In this document: positions 32,981 to 56,869 of the stretch, piece after piece | How positions within the stretch are numbered: position 1 is the first letter of the stretch | Layout: every line of letters begins with the position of its first letter | DNA from: Bradyrhizobium sp. | Lineage (GTDB): Bacteria; Pseudomonadota; Alphaproteobacteria; Rhizobiales; Xanthobacteraceae | DNA length: 64,000 bases | Assembly: GCF_030646015.1 (NCBI RefSeq) | Contig: NZ_JAUSLT010000106.1 | Span: 1 to 64,000, forward strand | Reading direction: 5' to 3' | Notes under the pieces: generated by a model | What the model was told of the DNA's origin: nothing | What the model saw: only the letters and a program-made list of their open reading frames with translations | Database searches by the model: none | Translations under genes and position numbers: made by a program

Positions 32981-33766
32981 TCACTTCCTCATAGCCGCCG
33001 CCACCGCCTGCCAGATCTGGTCCTTGATCTCGGTCGCGGCGGGGCTGGCGATCACCGCGGCGGGGCCGGTCTGCTTGTGGCAGGCCTCGACCAGCCGCAG
33101 GATCCAGACCTCGCCGTCGGTGTAATAGAGATCGCCGCCGCCGTTGCGCCCGGCCAGTGTCGGGCCGATGCCGGTGACCTGGTATTTCGCCTGCACCATG
33201 CCGGCCGCCTCCAGGTCGGTCAGGAGAAATTGCCGCTCGGCGTCGATATCGGCATCGATGTGGTGGGTGATGGCGCCGGTGTAATGGCTGACGCCGACGC
33301 TGCGATCGAAGGTGGCGTCGCCGAGCCAGACCGGGCGCTTTTCCTCGCCCTGCTCCAGCACCTTCCAGAACCGCACATGGTGGCGGTGATCGGCGCTGCG
33401 TCCATCCGCCTTCTCGAAGGCGAGGTCTTCGCGGCGGCCGAGGTAATACAGATTGCTGACCGGCGCCGCGCGATAGGGGCGGTCGAGCAGCACGCTGCCG
33501 GCGATTTCGATCGACGATTTCAGCGTGATCGGATCGGCCGGATACCAGCCGGCGGCATGCATGGCGCAGAGCACGTCTTTTGTGTCGCCGACCAGCCCGA
33601 CATTGACGGGATCGCCGGGAATGCCTTGCGCGGTGCGCGTCACCATCGGCAGCTCGGCGAGCCCCTTCTGGTGCTCGTAATGGGTCCAGAATGCCGGCAG
33701 CACGACATAGGCGAGGAGAACGTAGGCGGTGATGACCGACAGCAGCAGCCACGCGGCGCGCTTCAT
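32981..33766 (-). CDS. LssY C-terminal domain protein
   Basis: A 261-aa protein with one N-terminal membrane helix (AAWLLLSVITAYVLLAYVV) and a soluble domain matching the LssY C-terminal family (GDPVNVGLVGDTKDVLCAMH, then AGWYPADPIT and RVNWYW-like positions). The domain is found alone or fused to PAP2 phosphatases; its function is unknown. The start lies 4 nt after the upstream nuclease-like gene, so both are probably co-transcribed. Location is likely the periplasmic face of the membrane. Confidence 0.8.
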   Translation of the reverse strand: MKRAAWLLLSVITAYVLLAYVVLPAFWTHYEHQKGLAELPMVTRTAQGIPGDPVNVGLVGDTKDVLCAMHAAGWYPADPITLKSSIEIAGSVLLDRPYRAAPVSNLYYLGRREDLAFEKADGRSADHRHHVRFWKVLEQGEEKRPVWLGDATFDRSVGVSHYTGAITHHIDADIDAERQFLLTDLEAAGMVQAKYQVTGIGPTLAGRNGGGDLYYTDGEVWILRLVEACHKQTGPAAVIASPAATEIKDQIWQAVAAAMRK

Positions 33767-33770
33767 TGCG

Positions 33771-34493
33771 CTACCTTCGGGTCTCGCGGCAGCCGGCGGC
33801 CTCGGCCTCGTCGACCGAGCAGAACCAGCGCGTGCCCTTGCTGATCTTCATCTGGATCTTGGCGTACCAGCGGCTGGCCGGGGTGTGATAGATGCATACG
33901 CCGGAACGGTTGACGTTGCCCTTGATGGTGCAGTCGGGCGAGGGCGCCACCGGTCCGGAGGCCGAGGCCAGCAGGATGGCGCGGGCGTTCTCCGGCGGTT
34001 TGACGGCGCCGAGGATGGCGGTCTTCTTGTTGCGGACGCGCCAGTCCCACGGCGCGATGAAGGCGCCCTGCCACATCCCGGCCTTGGCCTCGCGCGCGGC
34101 CTTCTCGTCGGGGTCGTAGTCCTTGGAAACCCGCACCAGGGCCAGCGCCCAGCCGTTGCGGACCAGCCATTTCTGGATGTCCTCGCCGTCGACATCGCAG
34201 CGCGCCACGATGCGGCCGCGGCGATCGGTGACCTGGCGCCGGTTGCAGGACCATGTCCTGGTGCCGGCATATTTGATCAACTCGTCGCGGGCCGTTGCGC
34301 CGCAAGCCCAGCGCTCGCCCTTGGTGTTGAGGCAGAGCTGGTCCCCTTGCGGCGCGTCGATGCCGCCGAGGCGGATGCGGGCGTTGCCGATCTGGACGTG
34401 GTCGGCCTCGCGGATTTTGGGAACGCCGGTGATGTCGGCGGCGAAGGCTGTGGCAGGCAGCAGCAATGCGAACAGCGCAATCAGGAATTTCAT
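33771..34493 (-). CDS. Secreted thermonuclease-family (SNase-like) protein
   Basis: A 240-aa protein with a signal peptide (MKFLIALFALLLPATAFAA). The SNase fold is indicated by ARIRLGGIDAPQGDQLC and TDRRGRIVARCDVDGEDI, where family members cleave nucleic acids with two Arg and a Glu. The Glu usually found after GID(A/T)P is replaced by Gln here (APQ), so activity is uncertain. The C-terminal 90 residues carry extra cysteines. The ATG at 34493 is chosen because it starts the signal peptide; the RBS is poor. Confidence 0.78.
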   Translation of the reverse strand: MKFLIALFALLLPATAFAADITGVPKIREADHVQIGNARIRLGGIDAPQGDQLCLNTKGERWACGATARDELIKYAGTRTWSCNRRQVTDRRGRIVARCDVDGEDIQKWLVRNGWALALVRVSKDYDPDEKAAREAKAGMWQGAFIAPWDWRVRNKKTAILGAVKPPENARAILLASASGPVAPSPDCTIKGNVNRSGVCIYHTPASRWYAKIQMKISKGTRWFCSVDEAEAAGCRETRR

Positions 34494-34606
34494 GAAGCAG
34501 CGGCCGTCTACCATGAGGAATCGGCTAATCAGGCGCCACGATTGTGGTGCGGATTGGGCTGCCATGCCAGCGCGGACGCTTTCAACTTAACGCGATGTGT
34601 CGCTTC

Positions 34607-34706
34607 GTAGGGTGGGCAAAGGCGCTCTTCGCGCCGTGCCCACCATCATTTGCGCGGAGGAAGGATGGTGGGCACGGCGCGAAGCGCGCGCCTTTGCCCA
34701 CCCTAC
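34607..34706. repeat. Palindromic repeat, family E (GTAGGGTGGGCAAAGGCGC..)
   Basis: A near-perfect inverted repeat, GTAGGGTGGGCAAAGGCGC and its inverse GCGCCTTTGCCCACCCTAC, with inner GCACGGCGCGAAGCGC partners. Its right edge supplies the stop codon of the neighbouring 576-aa protein gene. Confidence 0.85.
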
Positions 34707-36433
34707 CTTGCGGCCATCATCGCCCGCCGCGCCAGCGCCAGGCCCATCAGCACGAAGGCCGAGGTGACTTCGGGGCCGCCGACCAGGATTCGGGTCGGGG
34801 TCTTCATCTTGTTCCACTCATAGGCCTTGAACGGCCCATGCCGGCCGCCTTCGCCAAGGCTCGCGACGATGCAATGCAGCGCCGGCGCGAAACTCGCAGG
34901 GGAGGCGCCGAGATGGCCGAGCGCGATCAGCGCCAGCGCGGCATCGAACGCATTCATCTCGTGCGCGATCAGCTCGGTCTGTACATAGGCCAGCACCTTC
35001 GCGCGGATGATCTCGAACGTGCCGTCGGGATCGACGGCGGCCTGCGCGGCCGGCGGCAGCGCGATGAAGGCGGCGTAGCAGCGGCCGAAATAGGCGCAGT
35101 AGAGCTCCGGCAGGTAATAGATATGCGAGCGCGGATTGGTGAAGGCGCCGCTCAGCACCAGCCGCTTCTGGAAGCCGATGATGCGGTGCACGGTCTCGAG
35201 CCGCGCCGGCGTCTCCCAAATCTTCCAGCGCGCAAAATTGCGGAAACTGACTTCGAGAATGTCGAGATTGAGCGTCGGATCGAGGTCATTGCCGAACGGG
35301 CGCTCGCCCCTGAGATTGTCGATCCAGGTGACGACGCCGCCCTCGTAATCGATGTTGTCGTTGAGCGGCACCGTGACCTTGGGCTCGTTGGCGCCTTCGC
35401 TCACCTGGTAGCCGGCATAGAAATCCAGCAGCGGCTGGTCGAGGATCGGATCGGTGGAGCCGGCCTGGGTTGCCGCCGAAAACGAGCAGGCGGTGGTGTC
35501 GCAGTCCGGCACGTAGATGCCGAAACCGAGGTCCTGCTTGATCTGCGCGAAGAACTTTGAAAAGCGCGGATGCGGCAGCGGCGCCAGTGCGGTGATGACG
35601 CGGACGGTCGAGCCGTCATGCGACTTCACATCCTCGGCGCTGGTGGTCAGGCAGAAGTCGACCATGTCGGCGATGGCGCGGCGGGAAGCGGTGGCTTCGT
35701 CCGGCGAGGCGAGGCCGGTCTCGGCAAAGCTCAGCAGCGCCTCGGTGAAGAAGGCGTCGTAATAGGCCGAGCGGTGGCGGATCTGCATCGGCTCCCACAT
35801 CGGCTCGGCGATGCCCTGCCACGGCGGGTTGATCAGTGCGCGGGCCGGCGAGCGCGCGATGAACACCCGCGCCAGGTTGAACAGCAGCGTCGAGTTCTTG
35901 TAGCCGCGCGAATTCAGCCCGGTCAGCGCCATCAGCATTTCGCGGCCGCGCAGATCGGCGTCGCCGATCAGATTGAAGGCGGCATAGGTCGGGATGAAGC
36001 CATTGCGGCCAAAGGATTTCAGCAGATGCGTAGCGCAGCCGCGGATCACGCTTTCGATCTGCGCCAGCTCCGGCGCACGCGCCGGCGCCGATGCGGCGAG
36101 GGGCCGGGGATGCGACAGCTCGATCGTATCCAGCAGGTCCGCGACCGGCGCGCCGATCGCGGCCCAGTCCGGCTCGGCATGGTCGCGCGCCTGGCCCAGC
36201 GCGTCGCGCAGGCGGCGCAGTTTGGCCTCGTCGCGCAATTCGACAAGCCCGGTCCGCCGCAGCAGCGGCCGCAGCGCCGGATTGCCCAGCGCGGTGCGAT
36301 AGAACTTGCCGAGATGCGGGTCGCCGCCGGAATATTTCAGCAGCAGGGGATCGCAGACGTCGTACAGCGACGGGCCGTGCTTGGCTGCCGTCAGTGCGCG
36401 GTAGGCGGCCCCGGCGATGCGGTGAAATGTCAT
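34703..36433 (-). CDS. Uncharacterised 576-aa protein
   Basis: A long, mostly helical, soluble protein with no signal peptide or clear membrane segment. Motif-like stretches are SFGRNGFIPTYAAFNLIGDA, NPRSHIYYLPELYCAYFGR and YEWNKMKTPTRILVGGPEVT. ATTAC.. (TTACSFSAATQAG) with aspartates around VPDCDTTA could be a binding site. The ATG at 36433 is preferred over the track start 36463. I do not recognise the family. Gene is monocistronic, divergent from the pseudo-caspase gene across a gap with a CRP-like site. Coding quality is high (long frame, ordered composition), so it is a real gene. Confidence 0.75.
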   Translation of the reverse strand: MTFHRIAGAAYRALTAAKHGPSLYDVCDPLLLKYSGGDPHLGKFYRTALGNPALRPLLRRTGLVELRDEAKLRRLRDALGQARDHAEPDWAAIGAPVADLLDTIELSHPRPLAASAPARAPELAQIESVIRGCATHLLKSFGRNGFIPTYAAFNLIGDADLRGREMLMALTGLNSRGYKNSTLLFNLARVFIARSPARALINPPWQGIAEPMWEPMQIRHRSAYYDAFFTEALLSFAETGLASPDEATASRRAIADMVDFCLTTSAEDVKSHDGSTVRVITALAPLPHPRFSKFFAQIKQDLGFGIYVPDCDTTACSFSAATQAGSTDPILDQPLLDFYAGYQVSEGANEPKVTVPLNDNIDYEGGVVTWIDNLRGERPFGNDLDPTLNLDILEVSFRNFARWKIWETPARLETVHRIIGFQKRLVLSGAFTNPRSHIYYLPELYCAYFGRCYAAFIALPPAAQAAVDPDGTFEIIRAKVLAYVQTELIAHEMNAFDAALALIALGHLGASPASFAPALHCIVASLGEGGRHGPFKAYEWNKMKTPTRILVGGPEVTSAFVLMGLALARRAMMAAR

Positions 36434-36555
36434 GCAGTTTCTTGCCCAGCCGCGCCGTCGCACGTCCCGCCAGGCCGCGTCGAAACCGCGAAACCGGCAA
36501 AATCTCCAACCCTATAAGCCCTTGAAAAACTACACGAAAACGAAGGGATTACAAA

Positions 36556-36604: not shown

Positions 36605-36850
36605 CGCAAAAGCGGCGCGACGCCGGCCGTAACCCTATGTAGGATCGAAGGAATTCATCTTGCGCGCGGCCCGCAGGGCTGCCTTCCCCAAACGAGGTTG
36701 CCGATGCGGGTCCTGCAGGTTAAGACTTCTTTTGTTGCAATGCCGCAAATAGAGCGCAATTGGGCGACACACCGCCCGGCAACTCCTCAAACCTAATCGG
36801 TTTTGGCGCGACTAACTGGCGCGCTTATGCCGATGACCGGGAATGAACCG

Positions 36851-37720
36851 ATGAACCTTTGGCAGATCAGCATCTCCCGCCGCAGCCTCACGATTGCCTC
36901 CGTGCTGGTGGCCACGGTGTCGCTGGGCATCGGTGCCCATGCCGCGCTCAACAAGCGCGCGCTCGATGCCGCCAAGGCGATCGCCTCCGAGCAGGGCGAA
37001 GCCGCCGCCGCCAGGGGTTCGAAAATCGCGCTGGTGATCGGCAACGGCCATTATCCCGACGCCCATGCGCCGCTGGCGCAGCCGATCAACGACGCCCGCG
37101 CGCTCACCGCCACGCTGCGCAGCAGCGGTTTCGACGTCGACGTCGTCGAGGACGCCAGCAAGGACGACATGCGCCGCGCCGTCGCGCGGCTGCAGGCCAA
37201 GGTCGGGCCGGATAGCGTGGTCATGCTGTTCTTCGGCGGCTACGGCGTGCAGGCCCGTCGCGAGAGCTACATGATCCCGGTCGACGCCCAGATCTGGAAG
37301 GAAGCCGACGTGCGCCGCGACGGCATCAGCGTCGAATCCGTGCTCGACGCGATCAGCGAAAAGGGCGCCCGCGCCAAACTGGTCGTGGTCGACGCCAGCA
37401 GGCGCAATCCCTGGGAGCGCCGCTTCCGCGCCTTCTCCCACGGCCTCGCCCCGATCACCGCCCCCGACAACGCGCTGATCCTGACCTCGGCCACGCCGGG
37501 CAAGGTCGCCGACGATTCCAAGAGCGCCAACAGCGTGCTGATGACCGAGCTGCTCAGGGAGCTCAACCCGCAGCTCGCCGGCATCGAATCCGCCTTCAAC
37601 AAGACCCGCATCGCCATCTCCCGCGCCACCGACGGCGAACAGGTGCCGTCGGTCTCCTCCTCGCTCCCGGAAGACGTCAGCTTCACCGGCACCGTCGCGA
37701 GCGACAAGGCGGGAAGCTAA
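36851..37720 (+). CDS. Caspase-fold protein lacking the catalytic His and Cys (pseudo-caspase)
   Basis: A 289-aa protein with an N-terminal signal anchor (RSLTIASVLVATVSLGIGAH) and a peptidase C14 fold: KIALVIGNGHYPD, then LFFGGYGVQ, YMIPVDAQIW and VVVDASRRNPWERRF. In active family members the third motif reads GHG and the last DAC; here they are GYG (Tyr131) and DAS (Ser183), so both dyad residues are lost. The protein is therefore probably a non-peptidase scaffold or regulator in the periplasm or membrane. It is a paralogue of the TPR-fused protein at 55343-56869. ATG 36851 is chosen; 36833 and a TTG at 36803 are alternatives. Confidence 0.85.
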   Translation: MNLWQISISRRSLTIASVLVATVSLGIGAHAALNKRALDAAKAIASEQGEAAAARGSKIALVIGNGHYPDAHAPLAQPINDARALTATLRSSGFDVDVVEDASKDDMRRAVARLQAKVGPDSVVMLFFGGYGVQARRESYMIPVDAQIWKEADVRRDGISVESVLDAISEKGARAKLVVVDASRRNPWERRFRAFSHGLAPITAPDNALILTSATPGKVADDSKSANSVLMTELLRELNPQLAGIESAFNKTRIAISRATDGEQVPSVSSSLPEDVSFTGTVASDKAGS

Positions 37721-37773
37721 GCTCCCTCGTCGTCCCTGCGAACGCAGGGACCGCAACCGGCAATCTCCATCAA

Positions 37774-37909
37774 CGTCGTCCCTGCGAACGCAGGGACCCA
37801 TACGCCGCGGCCCATCGATATTGCAGATGGTGTTAACCGGCTTGTTGAACCACTGCGCTACTGCCTCAGATGACCGGGATTATGGGTCCCTGCGTGCGCA
37901 GGGACGACG
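37774..37909. repeat. Palindromic repeat, family B, left copy
   Basis: CGTCGTCCCTGCGAACGCAG at the left end and its inverse CTGCGTGCGCAGGGACGACG at the right. An extra half unit lies just before it (37728-37752). It abuts the 3' end of the GIY-YIG gene. Confidence 0.85.
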
Positions 37910-37914
37910 AGAGA

Positions 37915-38196
37915 TTAAACCAGCAAATCACTCAGATCGCGCCATTCCAGATTCTCGCGCTCGATCAGCTCGATCTTCCAGTCCCGCTTCCAGCGTTTCA
38001 GCTGTTTCTCCCGCGCGATCGCTTCGTCCGCGCGCTCGTAAACCTCGACATAAACCAGCCGGTAAACGCCGTATGTCTTGACGAACGAGGAGCCCTCGCC
38101 CTCGCGATGCTCCGCCAGCCGCTTCTGCAGGGAATTGGTCACCCCGATATACAGGGTCCCGTGACGCCGGCTCGCGAGGATGTAGACGTAATACAT
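37915..38196 (-). CDS. GIY-YIG nuclease domain protein
   Basis: A 93-aa single-domain nuclease of the UPF0213/YhbQ type. YYVYILASRRHGTLYIGVTN holds the GIY-YIG strands, the catalytic Arg is in LQKRLAEH, and the metal-binding Glu is in AIAREKQLKRW. All expected catalytic residues are present. The ATG at 38196 begins the domain; the track ORF to 38301 runs into the flanking repeat. The gene lies between two copies of the family B repeat in the same orientation, an arrangement like a small mobile cassette. Confidence 0.9.
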   Translation of the reverse strand: MYYVYILASRRHGTLYIGVTNSLQKRLAEHREGEGSSFVKTYGVYRLVYVEVYERADEAIAREKQLKRWKRDWKIELIERENLEWRDLSDLLV

Positions 38197-38251
38197 GCGC
38201 GAAATTGAGGGGGCTGTTGAAGCAGGCGTTGAGCCTACAACAAAATACCTT

Positions 38252-38371
38252 CGTCGTCCCTGCGAACGCAGGGACCCATACGCCGCGGCCCCTCGGTTCA
38301 AGCAAAGTGGTCGACGACCTTCTTAAATAACCAACACCTGTGATTATGGGTCACTGCGTGCGCAGGGACGA
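38252..38371. repeat. Palindromic repeat, family B, right copy
   Basis: CGTCGTCCCTGCGAACGCAG..TGCGTGCGCAGGGACGAAG, in the same orientation as the left copy. Both copies continue with CCCATACGCCGCGGCC after the left arm, so they are close relatives. Confidence 0.85.
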
Positions 38372-38393: not shown

Positions 38394-39284
38394 CTACTTC
38401 TTCACATCCACGCTCGCCGTCACCGGCCGCACCGGATCGCCTTCGCGCAGCAGCGCGCCGGCGCGGGCCACCACGATGTCGCCTTCCTCGATGCCGCGGC
38501 GGATTTCCACCTGGCCCGACGACATCAGCCCGACCTCGACCTGCTTGGTCTCGACCCGCGCCCGCCGCACCACCTGCACCACGGTGCCGGCCGATGAGTA
38601 GAGGATCGCGGTCAGCGGCACCGAGATGCCGCAGCTCTGTCCGGTCTTGATCAGCGCCCGGCCGGACGAATTCACCAGCAGGCGCCGCGGCACCACCACC
38701 GAGACGAACACCTGGCCGAGCTGGCTGTTGGGCTCGATGGTCGAGGCCACCCGGCGCACCTTGCCCTCGACCTCGCCGGCGCCGATGATCTTGATCCGCG
38801 CGGTCTGGTTGACCGCGAGCTTGGAAATATCCCGCACCGGCACCATGCCGACCAGGTCGAATTCGCTGCGCGCGATGATCGAAAACAGCGCCTCGCCCTT
38901 GGCCCCCGCCACCGAGCCGACCACCGCCGTCGAGGCCGAGACCAGCCCCGCGGTCGGCGACGCCACCAGCGTCAGCCCGCCCTCGGGCAGCGACAGCCGG
39001 GCCAGCAGCTGGCCGGCAGTGACGGTATCGCCGGGCTCCGCCAGCACCTCCGCCACCTTCAGCCCCGGCCGCTCCGAGCGCACCGAGGTCTCCTCCCGCG
39101 GGATCAGGATGCCGGACACCTCGACGATATTGTTGAAGCAGGCTTTTGCCGCCTTGATCACGGTGACCGCGGCGCCCTTCGGCCCGCCCTCGGGCGGCTC
39201 GTCCGCGGCGAGCGCGGGGGAGGCGAGGACGAGGAGGGCGGCGAGGAGGGTCCGCGAGAGGCTGAGGGTGGGGAAATGATTCAT
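38394..39284 (-). CDS. HlyD/RND-type periplasmic adaptor, without adjacent pump
   Basis: A 296-aa exported protein (signal peptide SRTLLAALLVLASPALAA). It has the adaptor order: barrel-sandwich (VSGILIPREETSVRSERPGL, then AEPGDTVTAGQLLARL), beta-barrel and C-terminal membrane-proximal part. It is a distant paralogue of the adaptor at 53422-54333; both have a Cys in the first strand (KACFNN / NACFSD) and in SCGI. No RND or ABC pump gene is next to it, so it may work with a distant pump such as the one at 50279-53422. ATG 39284 is chosen; TTG 39290 has a better-spaced RBS. Confidence 0.8.
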   Translation of the reverse strand: MNHFPTLSLSRTLLAALLVLASPALAADEPPEGGPKGAAVTVIKAAKACFNNIVEVSGILIPREETSVRSERPGLKVAEVLAEPGDTVTAGQLLARLSLPEGGLTLVASPTAGLVSASTAVVGSVAGAKGEALFSIIARSEFDLVGMVPVRDISKLAVNQTARIKIIGAGEVEGKVRRVASTIEPNSQLGQVFVSVVVPRRLLVNSSGRALIKTGQSCGISVPLTAILYSSAGTVVQVVRRARVETKQVEVGLMSSGQVEIRRGIEEGDIVVARAGALLREGDPVRPVTASVDVKK

Positions 39285-39416
39285 CGGCAATACGATCCCG
39301 TTTCGGGGGCTATCGATATCAGAAGGCGGGCTGACGGGCCAAGCGAAGGTTGAATGATCCTCTAAAACACGTATATTATGTATTCTTGAGGCTGCAACTA
39401 AAGCTAGCGTTCAGCC

Positions 39417-42447: not shown

Positions 42448-44934
42448 CTACACCGGCTGCTGCCGCCGCCGCGGCGCCTCGGTCTCCGCCACCTCTGCCG
42501 CCGCCGCCACCTCACCCTCGTCGCGCCACCGCAAAATCTCCACCGCCAGGATCGGATGGTTGAAGCCCTTCAGCGTCAGGTCCTCCAGCTGGCGGCCCTC
42601 GGCCCAGGGCTCGACCATACCGAACACGCGCTGGCTGACCACGATCTGGCCGGCCTTGGCCTCGTCGCACAGCCGCGAGGCCAGGTTGGTGACGCTGCCG
42701 ATCGCGGCGTATTCCAGCCGCTGCTCGAAGCCGATCTGGCCCAGCGTCGCATAGCCGAGCGCGATGCCGACGCCGAAGCCGAGGCTATGCCCGCGGTTGC
42801 GCCATTTCTGGGTCAGCACGCCGATGGTGTCGCGCATCTCCACCGCCATCTTCACCGCGCGCTGCACGTGATCCTCGAACTGGATCGGCGCGTTGAACAG
42901 GATCATCACGCCGTCGCCGGCATAGCGGTCGAGCGTTCCCTCGTAGCGGAAGATCAATTCGCCGAGTGCGGCGTGATATTCGCGCAGCACGTTCATGGCC
43001 TCTTCCGGCTCGGTGGTCTCGGTGAAGGCGGTGAAGCCGCGCAGATCGCAGAACACCACCGTCACCTCGCGGCGATGGCTGTCGAGCAGCGAATCATGGC
43101 CGTCGGAGGAGGCGATCAGCTGCGCCACCTGCGGCGGCAGGAAGCGCTCCAGCCGGCGGATGCGCTCGATCTCGCCGAGCTGCTTCTCGACCCGCTCCTC
43201 CAGCGACCTGTTCCAGTTCTTCAGTTCGTCGGTCTGTTCCTGCAGCTTGGCGGCCTGCTGCTGCACGGTGGAATGCGCCGAAGCGAGTTCGCGGCCCTTG
43301 GCGTCGACTTCCGAAAACAGCCGCGCATTGCGCATCGCCAGCACCGATTGATGCGCAAAGGTCTTCATCAGCCCGATCAGGTCGGCTGAGAACTCGCCGG
43401 CCTCTTTGCGCAACACCACCAGCGATCCCAGAACGCCCTTCTGGTCGACCAGCGGCACCACCAGCACCGAATGGAATCCGGCTTCCATCACGACGTCGCG
43501 CAGCCGGTTTTCGACGGCCCCGGCGAGATCGGGGATCGCGATCGGCTCGCCTTGCGCCGCGGCCTCGCCGAGCACGCTGTCGGCCTCGTCGATGACAAGA
43601 TGATTGCCTCCGGCCGCCTTGTCGATGCCGATCGCCTCGGTGAGGTTGAACTGATGCTTTGCCGCGTCATGGCCGTAGATCAGCACCGCGTCGGCATGGG
43701 TGATTTCCAGCGCCCGCGCCGCCACCGTCGGCAGCACGGCGTTGAGATCGAGCGAGGAGGCCACCGCGCGGCCGACTTCCTCGAGCACCTTGAGCTCGTT
43801 GATCGAGCGCGCCAGATCCCGCGTGCGCGCCTCGACCTTGGATTCGAGGCCGGCATAGGTTTCCTGCAGCTGGCCGGCCATGCTGTTGAACTGGTCGGAC
43901 AGTTCTTCCAGCTCATCCCTGGTGCGCACCTCGATGCGATGGCTGAAATCGCCGGCACCGAGCCGCCGCGCCCCGGCGCGCAAGGCCGTGATCGGGATCA
44001 GCATCCGCCGCGCCAGCACGGTGCCGGCGAGAATCGCGACCACCAGGCCGAGCCCGATCAACAGCGCGCTCCGCACCAATTGGTCGCGGATCGGCGCCAG
44101 CGCCTGCGCGGTCGGCTGCTCGAACAGCGCATGCCAGCCGAGTTTTGCAACAGCGCTCGATGCGGTCAACACCGCCTCGCCATCAAAGCCGGTGCCGGAG
44201 GTGAGCGGTGTGCCGTCCGGCTTCAGCAGGGCTGCGACCTGCGGCAGCCTGGCGAGTTCGTTGCCGACCTCCGGGCCCTTCGAGCCCGCCAGCACCTGGC
44301 CGCGGGCATCGACCACATAGGCGTAGCCGACCTTGCCGATCTGGGCCTCGCCGAGGAAATCGTTGAGAAAGCGCAAATCGATTTCGGCCAGCGTCACCCC
44401 GGCATTGACGCCGGAATGCGACACCGCGATCGACATGAACGGACGGGAGCCGACGAAATAGGCCGGCGCGAAGGTGACGCCCTTGGCGTTGGTCTCGATG
44501 AAGCGGACGTCGCGGGAAAAATCGCCGTCGCTGTCGGTCACCACCTGGGTGCGCGACATCCGCAGCAATTCGCGGCCACTTCCGCTGAGAAATGTGAGCT
44601 GGCTCACCGCCGGCAGCTGGTTCAGCAGCTGCGCATAATCGGCGCGGCGCTGCTGCAGGGTGCGATCGAGGCTCGCGGCCGTCGCGCTGGCGCGCGTCAC
44701 CCAGCTGATCTGCCGCTCCAGCTCGAAGATCGACTGCTCGATCCGCCGCGCGGTGGCCTCCGCCTTCTCGCCCATGGCCTCGACCAGCGCGACGCGAGTA
44801 CCGCGATAGCTGATCCAGGTTTCCATCGCGCCGTTGACCGCCAGCACGAACACCACGAGGCCGACCAGCGAGACGACGTATTTGGCGAACAGCCCTTCGC
44901 GCAGAAACCAAGTTTTGTCCTTGACCGCGCTCAT
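42448..44934 (-). CDS. Class III adenylate/guanylate cyclase with Cache, HAMP and GAF domains
   Basis: An 828-aa membrane protein. Helix 1 (YVVSLVGLVVFVLAVNGAM), a periplasmic Cache sensor (about 45-270), helix 2 (SALLIGLGLVVAILAGTVLA), HAMP, GAF (about 395-545), a coiled coil, then the class III cyclase domain. Metal Asp residues are in VVFCDLRGFTAF and AGDGVMILF; the transition-state Asn and Arg are in AAIGSVTNLASRL. It makes a cyclic nucleotide in response to a periplasmic cue. The substrate-selecting Lys position reads Arg (DRYAGD), as in other rhizobial cyclases of this type. A Crp/Fnr gene lies 2.5 kb away. Confidence 0.9.
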   Translation of the reverse strand: MSAVKDKTWFLREGLFAKYVVSLVGLVVFVLAVNGAMETWISYRGTRVALVEAMGEKAEATARRIEQSIFELERQISWVTRASATAASLDRTLQQRRADYAQLLNQLPAVSQLTFLSGSGRELLRMSRTQVVTDSDGDFSRDVRFIETNAKGVTFAPAYFVGSRPFMSIAVSHSGVNAGVTLAEIDLRFLNDFLGEAQIGKVGYAYVVDARGQVLAGSKGPEVGNELARLPQVAALLKPDGTPLTSGTGFDGEAVLTASSAVAKLGWHALFEQPTAQALAPIRDQLVRSALLIGLGLVVAILAGTVLARRMLIPITALRAGARRLGAGDFSHRIEVRTRDELEELSDQFNSMAGQLQETYAGLESKVEARTRDLARSINELKVLEEVGRAVASSLDLNAVLPTVAARALEITHADAVLIYGHDAAKHQFNLTEAIGIDKAAGGNHLVIDEADSVLGEAAAQGEPIAIPDLAGAVENRLRDVVMEAGFHSVLVVPLVDQKGVLGSLVVLRKEAGEFSADLIGLMKTFAHQSVLAMRNARLFSEVDAKGRELASAHSTVQQQAAKLQEQTDELKNWNRSLEERVEKQLGEIERIRRLERFLPPQVAQLIASSDGHDSLLDSHRREVTVVFCDLRGFTAFTETTEPEEAMNVLREYHAALGELIFRYEGTLDRYAGDGVMILFNAPIQFEDHVQRAVKMAVEMRDTIGVLTQKWRNRGHSLGFGVGIALGYATLGQIGFEQRLEYAAIGSVTNLASRLCDEAKAGQIVVSQRVFGMVEPWAEGRQLEDLTLKGFNHPILAVEILRWRDEGEVAAAAEVAETEAPRRRQQPV

Positions 44935-50278: not shown

Positions 50279-53200
50279 CTACTCCGCCGCGGGCGAATGC
50301 GCGATGGCCGGTGCCGGCTTGTGGCCGCCGGAATGATCGCCCGGTCCGGGCTCGTTCTCGCCGCTGGAGGCCAGCAGCTTCTTGCCGAAGCGCCAGATCA
50401 GGGCGCCGAGGTCGTCCATCAGGATGAACATCGCGGGCACGAACACCAGCGACAGCAACGTCGAGAACACTAGGCCGCCGATCACCGCCAGCGCCATCGG
50501 CGAACGGAATTCGCCGCCGGCGCCGAACGCCAGTGCCGAGGGCATCATGCCGGCTGCCATCGCGATGGTGGTCATGACGATGGGACGCGCGCGCTTGATG
50601 CCGGCGTCGATGATCGCCGCGTCGCGCGGCGCGCCCTCGCGGATCGACTCGACCGCGAATTCCACCAGCATGATGGCGTTCTTGGTGACGATGCCCATCA
50701 GCATCAGGATGCCGATCCATACCGGCGTCGTCAGCTGCTTGCCGGTCAACAGCAGCGCCGCGATGGCGCCGCCGATCGAGAGCGGCAGCGAGAACAGGAT
50801 GGTGATCGGCTGCAGGAAGGTGCCGAACAACAACACCAGCACTGCATAGACCATCATCAGGCCGGTGGTGATCGCGGTGGCGAAACCTTCCGACAGTTCG
50901 TTGAGGCTTTCGGCGTCGCCCGAGGGGCTGACCTTGACGCCCTTGGGCAGGCTCTTCATGACCGGCAGGTCGTAGATTTTCTTGGTGGCGTCGCCGAGCG
51001 CCGCGGAGCCGACGAGGTCGGCGGCCACGGTGGCCTGACGTTCCCGGTCGTAGCGGTTGATGCTGGTCGGCCCCTGATCGAGCCGGATGTCGGCGACCAC
51101 CGAGAGCGGCACGCCGCCCTTTTCGCCGCGCTGGCCCAAAGGCACCCGCAACTGTTCGAGGATCTGCAGGTCGCCGCGCGCGCCGTCCTCGAGCTGGACC
51201 CGGATCGGCACCAGCCGGCCGCCGGCGTCGAATTTCGCCAGCGCCGGGCCGACGTCGCCGATGGTGGCGACGCGGATGGTCTGCGACAGGCTTTCGGTGG
51301 AGACGCCGAGCCTTGCCGCCAGCTCTGCCCGCGGCTGGATGCGAAGCTCCGGCCGGTCGAGCGAGGTTTCGGAGATCACGTTGGAGATGATCGGAATCCG
51401 CTTCATCTGCGTCGCCAGCTCGCTGGCGACATTGCCGACGATGTTGCTGTCGACGCCGGTGACGACCAGCGAGATCGCGCGCAGGCCGTTTTCGTCGAGG
51501 AACCAGAACCGGATGTCCGGAACGTTCTCGAGATCGCCCGAGATTGCCAGCTCCAGCTCGCGCTGGGTAATCTTGCGGTCGCCCTTCGGCGTATAATTGA
51601 TGATCAGCGCGGCGCGGCGCACTTCGAAGATGCCCGGAGGCACACGGCCGCCGTCGACGAACACGCTCTTGATCTCGGGCCGCTTGCGCAGGCGCGTCAC
51701 GATCTCCTCGGTGACCTTCTCGGTATAGGCAAGCTGCGACCCCGGCGGCAGCTCCATCGCCAGCAGCGAGCGCGCGGTGTCCTGCGCCGGCAGGAAGCCC
51801 TGCGGCAGCAGCGTGATGCTCCAGATCGAGACGGCGAGGGTGCCGAAGCCGGCCAGCACGGTGATGAAGTAGTGTTTCACCGACCAGGTCACGAGCTTGG
51901 TATAGGTCTTCAGGATGCGGCCCGGCGGCGGGTCCTCGTGCGGATGGTCCTTCAGGAAGTAGGCGGCCAGCACCGGCGTGACGAAGCGGGCGGCCAGCAG
52001 CGAGAAGAACACCTGCACCGACACCGTGATGCCGAATTGCTTGAAGAATTGCCCGGCGATCCCCGACATGAAGCTTGCCGGCGCGAAGATCGCGATGATG
52101 GTCAGCGAGATCGCGATCACGGCGAGGCCGATCTCGTCGGCGGCTTCCAGTGCGGCGCGATAGGGCGACTTGCCCATTCGCATGTGGCGCACGATGTTCT
52201 CGATCTCGACGATGGCGTCGTCGACCAGGATGCCCGTCGACAGCGTGATGGCGAGGAAGCTGACCAGGTTCAGCGAGAATCCCAGCATGTCCATCGCCCA
52301 GAACGCCGGGAAGATCGACAGCGGCAGCGAGACCGCAACGATGATGGTGGCGCGGATGTCGCGCAGGAACAACAGCACGACGATGACGGCGAGGATGGCG
52401 CCTTCGAACAAGGTCGAAATCGCCGCTTCATAATTGCCCTTGGTGAAATCCACCGAGGTATCGATCAGCTTGAGGTCGACGTCGGGATAGGCGCTCTTCA
52501 GCGCTTCGATGCGCTTCTGCACGGCGGCGGCGACCACCACGTCGCTGGCGCCCTTGGAGCGCTTGATGCCGAGCGCCACCACCGGCTCGCCGTTCAGGCG
52601 CGCGAAGGTGCGGCGGTCGGCGATGGTGTCGGTGACGGTGCCGAGATCGTCGAGACGAACCTCGCCGCCGCCGAACAGCGGGATCATAGTGCCGGCGAGA
52701 TCGTTCAGGGTCTTGGCACCGGCCAGCGTACGGATCGCCTGGTCGTTCTTGCCGATCTCGGCACGGCCGCCGGCGAGATCGACATTGGTGCCGCGCAGGA
52801 TCTGGCTGACATTGACCGCGGTCAGGCCCGCGGCCTGCAGCCGGTCGGGATCCAGCGACACCAGGATTTCGCGCTCGACACCGCCGATCCGCTCGACCTG
52901 GGCGACGCCGCGCACACCCTGCAGCGCGCGCTTGACCACGTCGTCGACGAAATAGGACAGCTGCTCGGGCGTCTTGCCGGGCGAGATCGCGGCATAGGTG
53001 ACGATCGGCAGGCCGATCACGTCGACGCGCTGGATCAGCGGCTCGTTGACGTTCTGCGGCAGGTTGGAGCGCACCCTTGTGACGGCGTCCTTGACGTCGT
53101 TCAGCGCCCGGTCGGTGTTGGTCTCGAGCGCGAACTGGATTGTGGTCAGCGACAGCCCGTCGGTGATCGACGACGAAATGTGCCGCACGCCCTCGACGCC

Positions 53201-53422
53201 GGACACGCCGTCCTCGATGGTCTTGGTGACCTGCGATTCCAGTTCGGCGGGTGCCGCGCCGAACTGCGACACCGCGACCGAGATCACCGGGATGTCGGCG
53301 CTCGGCAGCCGCGTCACCGCGAGCTTGGTGAAGCTGACCCAGCCCAGTACCAGAAGGATGATGGAGAAGACGATCGACGGCAGCGGGTTTCGGATCGACC
53401 AGGCCGAGATATTGAGAGCCAT
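50279..53422 (-). CDS. RND efflux pump, inner-membrane transporter (HAE1/AcrB family)
   Basis: A 1047-aa protein of normal RND length with about 12 helices and two large periplasmic loops. IRNPLPSIVFSIILLVLG is the first helix, and GILVDDAIVEIENIVRHM with the proton-relay acidic pair (VDDAIV) lies in TM4; TM10 holds the Lys-type segment MGIVTKNAIMLVEFA. It exports drugs, detergents or metabolites using proton flow. Its ATG overlaps the adaptor gene stop by one base (TGATG), so both are coupled. No TolC-type outer membrane gene is next to it. Confidence 0.94.
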   Translation of the reverse strand: MALNISAWSIRNPLPSIVFSIILLVLGWVSFTKLAVTRLPSADIPVISVAVSQFGAAPAELESQVTKTIEDGVSGVEGVRHISSSITDGLSLTTIQFALETNTDRALNDVKDAVTRVRSNLPQNVNEPLIQRVDVIGLPIVTYAAISPGKTPEQLSYFVDDVVKRALQGVRGVAQVERIGGVEREILVSLDPDRLQAAGLTAVNVSQILRGTNVDLAGGRAEIGKNDQAIRTLAGAKTLNDLAGTMIPLFGGGEVRLDDLGTVTDTIADRRTFARLNGEPVVALGIKRSKGASDVVVAAAVQKRIEALKSAYPDVDLKLIDTSVDFTKGNYEAAISTLFEGAILAVIVVLLFLRDIRATIIVAVSLPLSIFPAFWAMDMLGFSLNLVSFLAITLSTGILVDDAIVEIENIVRHMRMGKSPYRAALEAADEIGLAVIAISLTIIAIFAPASFMSGIAGQFFKQFGITVSVQVFFSLLAARFVTPVLAAYFLKDHPHEDPPPGRILKTYTKLVTWSVKHYFITVLAGFGTLAVSIWSITLLPQGFLPAQDTARSLLAMELPPGSQLAYTEKVTEEIVTRLRKRPEIKSVFVDGGRVPPGIFEVRRAALIINYTPKGDRKITQRELELAISGDLENVPDIRFWFLDENGLRAISLVVTGVDSNIVGNVASELATQMKRIPIISNVISETSLDRPELRIQPRAELAARLGVSTESLSQTIRVATIGDVGPALAKFDAGGRLVPIRVQLEDGARGDLQILEQLRVPLGQRGEKGGVPLSVVADIRLDQGPTSINRYDRERQATVAADLVGSAALGDATKKIYDLPVMKSLPKGVKVSPSGDAESLNELSEGFATAITTGLMMVYAVLVLLFGTFLQPITILFSLPLSIGGAIAALLLTGKQLTTPVWIGILMLMGIVTKNAIMLVEFAVESIREGAPRDAAIIDAGIKRARPIVMTTIAMAAGMMPSALAFGAGGEFRSPMALAVIGGLVFSTLLSLVFVPAMFILMDDLGALIWRFGKKLLASSGENEPGPGDHSGGHKPAPAIAHSPAAE

Positions 53423-54333
53423 CAGCGCACCCGCGTTCGATCTAGTTCCTCGGCGAACATGGTCTTGATCTGGTCGCCGTCATGCAGCGAGGTGCCCGCG
53501 TCGGCGACGACGATTTCGCCGACGTCGAGGCCCTCGAGGATTTCCGTTGATGTGTCGGACACCAGCCCGACCCTCACTTTCCGCGTCTCAACGATGTTTC
53601 CTTTGACCACCTGAACGGTCGAATGGTCAATGGCGGTGCGCGGGATCGCGACGCCGCAACTGCGCTTGGCGTCGATGCTGGCGCGCGCAAACATGCCGAT
53701 CTTGAGCGACGGGTTGTTGGTCAGCGCGATCCGGATATGGCCGAGCTGGGTGGCGCGGTCGATCTGCGGCGAGACCAGCCGCACGCGCCCGATCAAATCG
53801 GGCACGTTGTCCCGGCTGATCCGCGCGCCGGCGCCGGGATTTAGCTTCAGCATATGGATCGCCGGCACTTCGGCATCCAGTTCGATCTCGTTGTTGACGG
53901 AAATCCGGAACATCGGGCCGGCCTGCGGCGAGGCGGGCGCGCCGGCGATGGTCCTGACTTCGGTAACGAGGCCGGCGGCCGGCGCGCGCAGCACGGTCGG
54001 GCCGGGCCGCGTCCCGGGCTGCTGCGGCGGCGGTGTCAGCCGCGCCAGTTCCTGATTGTCGGTGACGATGTCGCCTTCGCGCACCAGCACCTCGGAAACC
54101 CTGGAGCCCTCCTGCTCGACGCCGACCACCGCTTCGCGGCGCGGCACGATAAAGCCGGTGACCCGGACCAGGTCGGAGAAGCAGGCGTTGGTGCTCTTGG
54201 TGACGATGACCATCGCCTTGGTCGGAATTTCCTTTTCCTCGGGACGAGGACGGTGCCCAAGCCAGTAGTAAACCCCCACCGCGACCACGACGACCACTCC
54301 GATCGCAGGCTTGAGATATTCGGAGAGCTTCAT
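53422..54333 (-). CDS. RND periplasmic adaptor (membrane fusion protein)
   Basis: A 303-aa adaptor with an N-terminal membrane anchor (AIGVVVVVAVGVYYWLG). Barrel-sandwich motifs are VTGFIVPRREAVVGVEQEG and VREGDIVTDNQELARL; RTAIDHSTVQVVKGN lies in the membrane-proximal part. It links the RND pump (next gene, coupled) to an outer membrane channel. ATG 54333 is used; the track start 54372 is a TTG. It is a distant paralogue of the protein at 38394-39284. Confidence 0.9.
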   Translation of the reverse strand: MKLSEYLKPAIGVVVVVAVGVYYWLGHRPRPEEKEIPTKAMVIVTKSTNACFSDLVRVTGFIVPRREAVVGVEQEGSRVSEVLVREGDIVTDNQELARLTPPPQQPGTRPGPTVLRAPAAGLVTEVRTIAGAPASPQAGPMFRISVNNEIELDAEVPAIHMLKLNPGAGARISRDNVPDLIGRVRLVSPQIDRATQLGHIRIALTNNPSLKIGMFARASIDAKRSCGVAIPRTAIDHSTVQVVKGNIVETRKVRVGLVSDTSTEILEGLDVGEIVVADAGTSLHDGDQIKTMFAEELDRTRVR

Positions 54334-54396
54334 CGCCGGATCGATCCAGACCTGTCGGGAGGGAGGTATCAAGACGCTTTATCGCGTTTTCTTTAT

Positions 54397-54507: not shown

Positions 54508-55176
54508 CTATTGCTTGGACGCCGTGGTCTTGTTGGCCATGTTGACGACCTGCACGCGGCGGTTGGCTTCCGCCAGCGGCTGGCTCGGATCCTTCAGCTT
54601 GCTCTCGCCGTATCCGACGGTCACGAGGTCAGCGCCAGCGATGCCGTATTTTTCGGTCAAATAGCGCTTGATCGAGTCGGCGCGCCGCTCCGACAGGTCC
54701 TGGTTGTAACCGTCGCTGCCCGCGGCGTCGGTGTGGCCGGCGACGATGAAGGTCGAGCCCTTCAGATCGGCACTGCTCAGCGCCTTTCCGAGCGCCTGCA
54801 CCGAAGCCAGCGATTTGGCGCTGATCTCGGCCGAATTGTAATCGAAGGTGATCTCCAGATCGATATTCGGCTTGTCCTTGGCGAGGGTGGCGATTTCCTC
54901 GCGCTCGCTGGCCGAGAGCGAACGGCTGGGCCGGCCGCGGATCTTCTGGACGAAACGCCCTTCCTCGGCGGAGATCACCGGTTCAGCCTGCTGCGGACCG
55001 ACCGACAGGCCGCGGGTCAGCGGCTTCTTGGCCGGCGGCGCCAGCGCCCGCAGGATCTGATCCTCGGTGACCTCGTCGGCGGCGATCGCCCCGGTCATTC
55101 CGAAAGACAACGTGGCGCCGATCGTCACGATCGAAAGGATTGCCGTGAGATTGTTCCTTCCAGAGATCTTCGACAT
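54508..55176 (-). CDS. OmpA-family peptidoglycan-associated protein
   Basis: A 222-aa exported protein (signal peptide up to GAIAA). The C-terminal OmpA domain (about 105-215) has ITFDYNSAEISAKSL, VAGHTDAAGSDGYNQDLSER and ANRRVQVVN, with the Asp and Arg that bind peptidoglycan. The middle region (about 40-100) is polar. There is no N-terminal beta-barrel, so it is a periplasmic or lipoprotein-like linker. It lies 166 nt downstream of the TPR pseudo-caspase gene on the same strand. Confidence 0.9.
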   Translation of the reverse strand: MSKISGRNNLTAILSIVTIGATLSFGMTGAIAADEVTEDQILRALAPPAKKPLTRGLSVGPQQAEPVISAEEGRFVQKIRGRPSRSLSASEREEIATLAKDKPNIDLEITFDYNSAEISAKSLASVQALGKALSSADLKGSTFIVAGHTDAAGSDGYNQDLSERRADSIKRYLTEKYGIAGADLVTVGYGESKLKDPSQPLAEANRRVQVVNMANKTTASKQ

Positions 55177-55342: not shown

Positions 55343-56869
55343 TCAGCGTATCCCGTAACTCGCGAATTCCTTAACAATATTCGGATCCATCGCCTTGGCA
55401 TTGGTGATGTCCAGCTCGCCCTCGGAAATCGAGCCGTTTCGCTGCTTGGCGAGGCCGCGGCCGTACAGCGACGAGGTCAGCCGCGGGTTGATCTTGAGGG
55501 CGGCGTCGAAATCAGCAATTGCATTCTTGGTCTGCCCACTCTTCAGGTTGACGAGGCCGCGGCTGTCGAGGGCATCGACGAAGTTCGGGCGTAGCCGCAG
55601 CGCTTCGTTGCAATCCTTCAGGGCGGCCTGCAGGTCGCCGATCACGGCGCGGGCCCAGCAGCGGTTGTTATGGGCTTCCACGTCCTTGGGGTTCAGCCGC
55701 AGCGAGTTGTCGAAATCCTTGATGGCAAGGCTGTAGGCGCCCTTGCTGGCATAGACCTGGCCCCGCCGGTACAGCGCGCCGCCGTCATCCGGATTGGCGG
55801 CAAGCTTAGCGGTCAGGCTCTTGATGGTCGGATCCTCGGCCAGCGCCAGAGCCGTCGGCGCCTCGGTTTTTTCCGCTTCGGGCGGAGTGGCGACGATTTC
55901 GGGCGGCTTTGGCGGTGCCGGCGGCGGCGTTTCGACACGCGGCAGCGGCGGCGGTTCGACCTTTGCGGCCGGCGGCGGTTGGGGGGGGGCCTGAGGCGTG
56001 GCCTGAGGCGTGACTTGAGGGGTGATTTGGGGCGGCGGGGGCGGCGTCACGGGAGGCTTCACCGGCGGAGTAACCTGGGGTACCGCCGCCACCTGACCCT
56101 GGCCGGCCGGCTTCGCGCCCGGGATGAAAGAAAAATCCTCGGCCAGGGAGGACGAAATCCACGGCACCTGCTCGCTGCGGGAGGCGCGGGTGACGCCGAC
56201 CCGGGTCCGGTTCAGGGTTTCCTCGGCCATCAGGTCGGGAACGCGAATTTCCTTGAGCAATTCCTTCACGAACAGGCTGCGGTCGCCGCCATTGTCGCTG
56301 ACAACGGAAGACAACGCGGCCGAATACATCACCAGCGTTCCGTTCGGCGCGATCACGGGAGCGAGGCCCGCGGAAAAGCTGCGGAACCGGCGCTCGAACG
56401 GGTTGCGCCTGGAGGCGTCGATCAGGGCGATCTTGACGCCGGCGCCGCGGCTGTTGATTTCGCCGAGCACCGTCTCCAGGCTGAAGCCATCGCGGCGAAC
56501 ATCGGGTTCGGTCCAGATCTGGGCGTCGACCGGAATCATGTAGCTCTGGCGGCCGGACTGGATGCCGAACCCGCTGAAGAAAACCAGCGCCACCGAGCCG
56601 GGCTTGATCTTTCCGTAAAGCTTGTCGAAGGCGCGCCGCATCGCGTCGCCGGTCAGGTTTTCGCCGATCTCGACGTTGAAGCCGTCGCGCTTGAGCTCGT
56701 CGGCGACGGCGCGGGCATCGTTGATCGGCTCCTTCAGCGGCGCTTCGGCGTCGGGATATTTGGCGTTGCCGATAACCAGCGCAAACCGTTCGGCGCCCGC
56801 GGCGGCGGCCGGGACAATCGGAAGCACCGACAAAGCCGAAATCAGCAACAATGCAAGGCGGATTCTCAT
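55343..56869 (-). CDS. Pseudo-caspase with Pro-rich linker and TPR repeats
   Basis: A 508-aa exported protein (signal peptide ending PAAAAGA). The caspase-fold domain (about 28-250) has RFALVIGNAKYPD, LVFFSGFGIQ, YMIPVDAQIW and LIDASRRNPFERRF. The catalytic His is Phe101 (GFG) and the Cys is Ser153 (DAS), so it is not expected to cleave peptides. A Pro/Thr/Gln-rich linker (about 260-340) leads to at least three TPR units (about 365-490, for example AIADFDAALKINP). It is likely a protein-interaction scaffold in the periplasm. OmpA-type gene follows. Confidence 0.88.
   Translation of the reverse strand: MRIRLALLLISALSVLPIVPAAAAGAERFALVIGNAKYPDAEAPLKEPINDARAVADELKRDGFNVEIGENLTGDAMRRAFDKLYGKIKPGSVALVFFSGFGIQSGRQSYMIPVDAQIWTEPDVRRDGFSLETVLGEINSRGAGVKIALIDASRRNPFERRFRSFSAGLAPVIAPNGTLVMYSAALSSVVSDNGGDRSLFVKELLKEIRVPDLMAEETLNRTRVGVTRASRSEQVPWISSSLAEDFSFIPGAKPAGQGQVAAVPQVTPPVKPPVTPPPPPQITPQVTPQATPQAPPQPPPAAKVEPPPLPRVETPPPAPPKPPEIVATPPEAEKTEAPTALALAEDPTIKSLTAKLAANPDDGGALYRRGQVYASKGAYSLAIKDFDNSLRLNPKDVEAHNNRCWARAVIGDLQAALKDCNEALRLRPNFVDALDSRGLVNLKSGQTKNAIADFDAALKINPRLTSSLYGRGLAKQRNGSISEGELDITNAKAMDPNIVKEFASYGIR

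Follow-up and report, generated by a model that had tools for sequence, protein, structure and literature searches.

What does a caspase homologue do once its catalytic residues have been replaced? The question is raised by a gene at 36851..37720 (+) in the window, by which we mean the whole 64,000-nucleotide stretch analysed here (positions 1 to 64,000 of NZ_JAUSLT010000106.1, Bradyrhizobium sp., GCF_030646015.1), and by a second gene at 55343..56869 (-). Klemencic et al. 2019 (PMC6426788) named such proteins pseudo-orthocaspases, mostly from Rhizobiales, and gave a rule for their architecture: forms with a Tyr/Ser dyad (YS) are without further domains and mostly have an extended C-terminus, while forms with Phe/Ser (FS) always occur with TPRs. 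The window pair are one YS and one FS member of the class already defined in that study. Nothing separates the window YS protein from the published Rhizobiales YS proteins, which have the same C14 p20, the same Tyr/Ser dyad and no further recognised domain, its presence here not following photosynthesis genes; likewise nothing separates the window FS protein from the published Rhizobiales FS class, with its Phe/Ser dyad and C-terminal TPRs (PMC6426788). What is new here is the near genus-wide occurrence of the pair, a conserved gene block, the missing Cys, the exchange of Tyr and Phe, a diagnostic motif and a negative test of the link to photosynthesis. The assignment to the pseudo-orthocaspases rests on tested features; the scaffold mechanism proposed below is inferred.

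The catalytic dyad in the YS and FS proteins

The ORF at 36851-37720 (+) is present as predicted and encodes a 289 amino acid Peptidase_C14 protein, starting at an ATG at 36851 that is kept in relatives. A longer ORF from a TTG at 36803 was set aside as mechanical, and an antisense ORF at 36812-37801 (-), having no family match, was taken as a high-GC shadow. The nearest named record, from a Bradyrhizobium MAG, is 95 % identical. We identified this gene as YS from its match to PF00656 (E=5e-37), Foldseek comparison, the dyad columns and the conserved start; PF00656 is the only Pfam domain found, in keeping with the YS class rule (PMC6426788). The 508 amino acid FS protein was assigned from PF00656 (E=3e-35), TPR family matches (C-terminal repeats, TPR_1 E=2e-22), alignment and the dyad columns. 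Against the p20 profile the pair score 128 and 122 bits, with a curated cut-off of 21.4; neither has a separate p10 match, but PF00656 spans the whole domain. The nearest solved fold to the YS model is MALT1 (Foldseek E=1.5e-12), with a probability of 1.00 to both MALT1 and caspases, the model itself being weak overall (mean pLDDT 56.6, core 70-88).

In the YS protein a hydrophobic segment (about aa 12-32), preceded by S-R-R at aa 9-11, is followed by a spacer and then the p20 domain (aa 58-276) carrying GYG (Y131) and DAS (S183). The FS protein consists of a predicted signal peptide, the p20 domain (aa 27-248) with GFG (F101) and DAS (S153), a Pro-rich linker and TPRs at about aa 346-508. The original prediction had noted GFG/DAS in this second protein and a constant 30-residue offset between the two; the offset is exact, FS having F101/S153 where YS has Y131/S183. 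Dyad columns were read from a 168-sequence p20 alignment including true paralogues, in which these residues occupy the H and C columns, and the same motifs align with GHG and DMC of MALT1, whose catalytic residues are H415 and C464. The host genome encodes 17 C14 proteins, the remaining 15 of which retain H and C. The predicted loss of His and Cys thus stood, while the description of the replacement as Tyr plus Ser applies to YS only; FS has Phe and relatives swap both, so that "aromatic plus Ser" describes the dyad better.

Across 80 named loci of the Bradyrhizobium group the Cys position was Ser wherever it was read, mostly within GYG or GFG plus DAS, and the dyad loss is therefore not a sequencing accident; the His position was Tyr in 66 loci and Phe in six, with a few GYA and a few unread by pattern. 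Relatives with an intact dyad at these loci were looked for among the 80 named loci and in the p20 alignment, and none was found; one subgroup further removed retains His with Ala in the place of Cys. Ser never reverted to Cys in the orthologues read, while Tyr and Phe interchanged repeatedly. Cys is missing altogether from the window YS protein and, together with His, from the window FS p20, which excludes a displaced catalytic Cys in the p20 domains of this pair. More widely, 44 of 46 YS and 14 of 14 FS p20 domains are Cys-free, and 5 of the 14 FS domains are free of His.

A rewired enzyme, using Ser183 as nucleophile with another base or performing a different chemistry altogether, would account for a Ser that is fixed in YS and FS orthologues and for the nearly invariant RRNPxERR segment beside it. 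We consider this quite improbable, as Ala stands in for Ser in related subgroups (12/142 pseudo forms), Tyr and Phe are exchangeable and the FS p20 has no invariant His. The Tyr/Phe swap and the Ala replacements also make Tyr-Ser unlikely as a new catalytic pair. On the tree the His position changed at least 19 times, chiefly by exchange of Y and F, and no change to H occurred in either the YS or the FS clade, a pattern that likewise speaks against such a pair. From these sequence comparisons we infer that the window pair are inactive as proteases.

Acidic pocket, branch motif and descent

In contrast to the dyad, the acidic residues of the S1 pocket are kept, as D81/D181 in YS and D51/D151 in FS, and align with those of the MALT1 paracaspase, in which D365 and D462 line the Arg-binding pocket. 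MALT1 itself differs in being active, eukaryotic and equipped with Ig and death domains. Each of the 142 pseudo forms has Asp at the D365 equivalent, and at the D462 equivalent 137 have D and five have E; this conservation may be structural. Conservation of the pocket Asp in pseudo-orthocaspases has been reported previously (PMC6426788). Beside the dead dyad lies a branch-specific segment common to YS and FS, DA[SA]RRNP[YF]ERR, in which, counting from the dead Cys, all 142 pseudo forms have E at +6 and 139 of them have R at +2. True paralogues read DACR[DN]NPF, their +2 residue being D or N and their +6 residue variable.

The kept pocket is also compatible with a regulatory role, in which YS and FS would control the 15 true orthocaspases by pairing or by substrate competition, as FLIP(L) does with caspase-8. 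Their 15 potential targets are encoded in the same genome and there are precedents in FLIP(L) (PMC7586951) and Trypanosoma TbMC4 (PMC6426788), a pseudo-caspase and a pseudo-metacaspase respectively, TbMC4 likewise being a YS form (PMC6426788). These precedents differ however in being eukaryotic and in working with active relatives. No true orthocaspase is linked to the pair within the window, the C14 match count ranges from 7 to 21 among same-genus genomes keeping the pair, and there are cyanobacteria with a pseudo but no true form (PMC6426788); regulation of the true orthocaspases is, in our judgement, unlikely. A defence function was also considered and rejected: the PADLOC caspase model matched only weakly (E=1e-9 and 2e-7; 36 and 29 bits), and no defence partner was present among the examined neighbours of the pseudo-caspase genes.

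In a tree built after removal of the active-site columns, the pseudo forms split once from the His/Cys paralogues (SH-aLRT 98). As the pseudo sequences were gathered with a YS profile, this single split holds for the sampled sequences only; several independent origins of pseudo forms across bacteria have been suggested (PMC6426788). The Cys position requires six changes on the tree. In one genus (g34; L257, L258, L260 and L272), which forms its own clade, GHG occurs with DAA, the His being kept and the Cys lost; this state is compatible with the Cys having been lost first or with the His having been regained, the placement of the branch not being firm. Some orthologues of the FS protein read YS, so the TPR class is not tied to one dyad letter. 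Cyanobacterial YS forms such as SyOC, in which the dyad is also replaced and which as a class also have an N-terminal signal-like extension (PMC6426788, PMC7889975), fall mostly into different clades of the published tree. Cells from which SyOC was deleted tolerate oxidative stress better (PMC6426788, PMC7889975). Our literature search found no functional test of the class in Alphaproteobacteria.

Median dN/dS values were 0.32 for the YS p20, 0.11 for the FS p20 and 0.10 for the FS TPRs, indicating purifying selection; the YS spacer reached 0.75, while the YS N-terminus (0.30) was about equal to the YS p20. Together with the single tree split, these values lend support to the inactive conserved branch originally proposed. 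Decay of true orthocaspases into pseudogenes would explain the catalytic loss, and the FS gene is indeed split by a frameshift in one relative (G032) into frames of 171 and 465 amino acids (L071 and L102). The ORFs are nevertheless intact in nearly all genomes, dN/dS lies well below 1, and the invariant motifs and synteny are maintained, leaving decay a negligible prospect that conservation, dN/dS and synteny refute.

Distribution in the family and the photosynthesis link

YS orthologues were found in 34 and FS orthologues, some split or partial, in 35 of the 36 same-genus genomes searched, with one genome (G006) holding neither. Extra pseudo-orthocaspase paralogues (L104-L109, L110-L115) occur in some same-genus genomes, YS-like copies of about 300 amino acids, in some of which E-A-S replaces D-A-S, and FS-like copies of about 460 amino acids with FDGFG or FDGFA. 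In a draw of 200 genomes from the family, full-length YS, set at 412 bits or more, was present in 52 genomes from nine genera. Other strong matches scored 229-301 bits and, after a gap, the next reached 154 bits or less; every match in the 229-301 bit band for which the residues were read is a pseudo form. An order-level draw (298 genomes) yielded only two more genomes outside the family above 200 bits, both from one family (f41) and both with pseudo forms. Outside the family we observed GFA/DAS in a frame of over 1000 amino acids (L275, G389) and GYG/DAA followed by N instead of R (L274, G426).

Klemencic et al. 2019 proposed that pseudo forms serve photosynthesis or photosynthetic membranes, as they are concentrated in cyanobacteria and in orders that contain phototrophs and, within Alphaproteobacteria, occur in photosynthetic organisms only (PMC6426788). 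In the 200-genome draw, 25 genomes carry the reaction-centre gene (Photo_RC) and full-length YS is indeed somewhat commoner among them (12/25 vs 40/175, Fisher p=0.013, a comparison that ignores kinship). Nevertheless, 40 of the 52 YS genomes are without a reaction centre, 13 of the 25 phototrophs are without full-length YS, and within the nine YS genera YS is present in 12/14 phototrophs vs 40/41 others (p=0.16). No Photo_RC gene was found in the window's own genome, and among 37 same-genus genomes only four have a reaction-centre gene, one of them being G006, which has neither YS nor FS. The published link is contradicted genome by genome in this family; the presence of YS does not follow phototrophy, and we reject a photosynthetic role at genome level, regarding it as very unlikely for YS and FS. 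Setting this hypothesis aside leaves testable alternatives, the genes being near-universal in a genetically tractable genus, set among conserved neighbours and marked by a short diagnostic motif that can be mutated.

Neighbouring genes and a possible envelope scaffold

The original prediction of export or membrane anchoring is supported by an N-terminal hydrophobic segment in both proteins. The FS N-terminus resembles a cleavable signal peptide with an Ala-rich end and is three times less constrained than the FS p20. S-R-R before the YS segment is common, with KR or GR in some orthologues, which makes Tat export uncertain. Conservation of the YS N-terminus at the level of its p20 hints at a retained anchor; we reject it as proof of an uncleaved one.

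A block of genes recurs across YS genera in which an aminotransferase, the LssY_C-domain protein (32981..33766 (-); PF14067 E=6.7e-69), the SNase-domain protein (33771..34565 (-); PF00565 E=2.5e-9) and a gene of 586 amino acids (34703..36463 (-)) lie on one strand, with YS divergent from the 586-aa gene and an HlyD-family gene (38394..39290 (-); PF13437) convergent with YS. In most genomes the string FS-OmpA-HlyD-RND is also present. In the window the first gene downstream of FS, in the same orientation, is the OmpA-family gene (54508..55176 (-); PF00691), an adjacency seen across genera; it is followed co-directionally by genes for an HlyD-type membrane fusion protein (53422..54372 (-)), assigned from Pfam and synteny, and an AcrB-type RND pump (50279..53422 (-); PF00873 E=1.6e-225). 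Members and order of the block vary, and the FS-OmpA-RND order is not kept in every genome.

On these grounds (the fold, the dyad loss, the kept acidic pocket, the motif, selection, synteny and the published class) we consider it reasonably probable that these two pseudo-orthocaspases act in the cell envelope as scaffolds that bind Arg/Lys peptides but do not cleave, and that they are not tied to photosynthesis. With His and Cys replaced by Tyr or Phe plus Ser, the p20 domains would cut nothing and would act as binding modules, with YS tethered to the inner membrane and FS, which bears the TPRs, in the periplasm. A basic (Arg/Lys) stretch of a partner would sit uncut in the acidic pocket, and the FS TPRs may recruit further envelope proteins, for example the neighbouring OmpA, HlyD and RND products. 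It is possible, if on the whole doubtful, that the branch was re-purposed in a different manner, the near-invariant arginines and glutamate of DA[SA]RRNP[YF]ERR forming a new binding surface and YS and FS an envelope module with OmpA/HlyD/RND and the terpene-cyclase-like gene described below; an arginine would then perhaps fill the protein's own acidic pocket.

The 586-aa gene has no Pfam or NCBIfam match. It is divergent beside YS in 75 of the 80 named loci, the remaining five having less than 2 kb of upstream sequence. In the family draw it was found in 63/200 genomes, including 51 of the 52 with YS (the exception being G200). Of the 12 genomes that carry it without full-length YS, eight hold another pseudo-type caspase match and four none; two genomes (G149 and G251) have the gene with neither YS nor FS. 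As each is found alone, the link is strong without being obligatory, and is explained in part by common descent. The predicted fold of the 586-aa protein resembles class II terpene cyclases and comes closest to drimenol synthases of bacteria (13 % identity; Foldseek E=9e-5); its DCDTTA motif (aa 320-325) is invariant, and cyclisation by AsDMS uses a DxDTT motif (PMC9128629). The gene possibly represents an unannotated class II terpene-cyclase family. Two further genes lie near the pair, a small GIY-YIG nuclease-domain protein just downstream of YS (37915-38301 (-)) and, between the two pseudo-caspases, a dCache-HAMP-GAF-adenylate/guanylate cyclase protein (42448-44934 (-)) that is kept in several genera.
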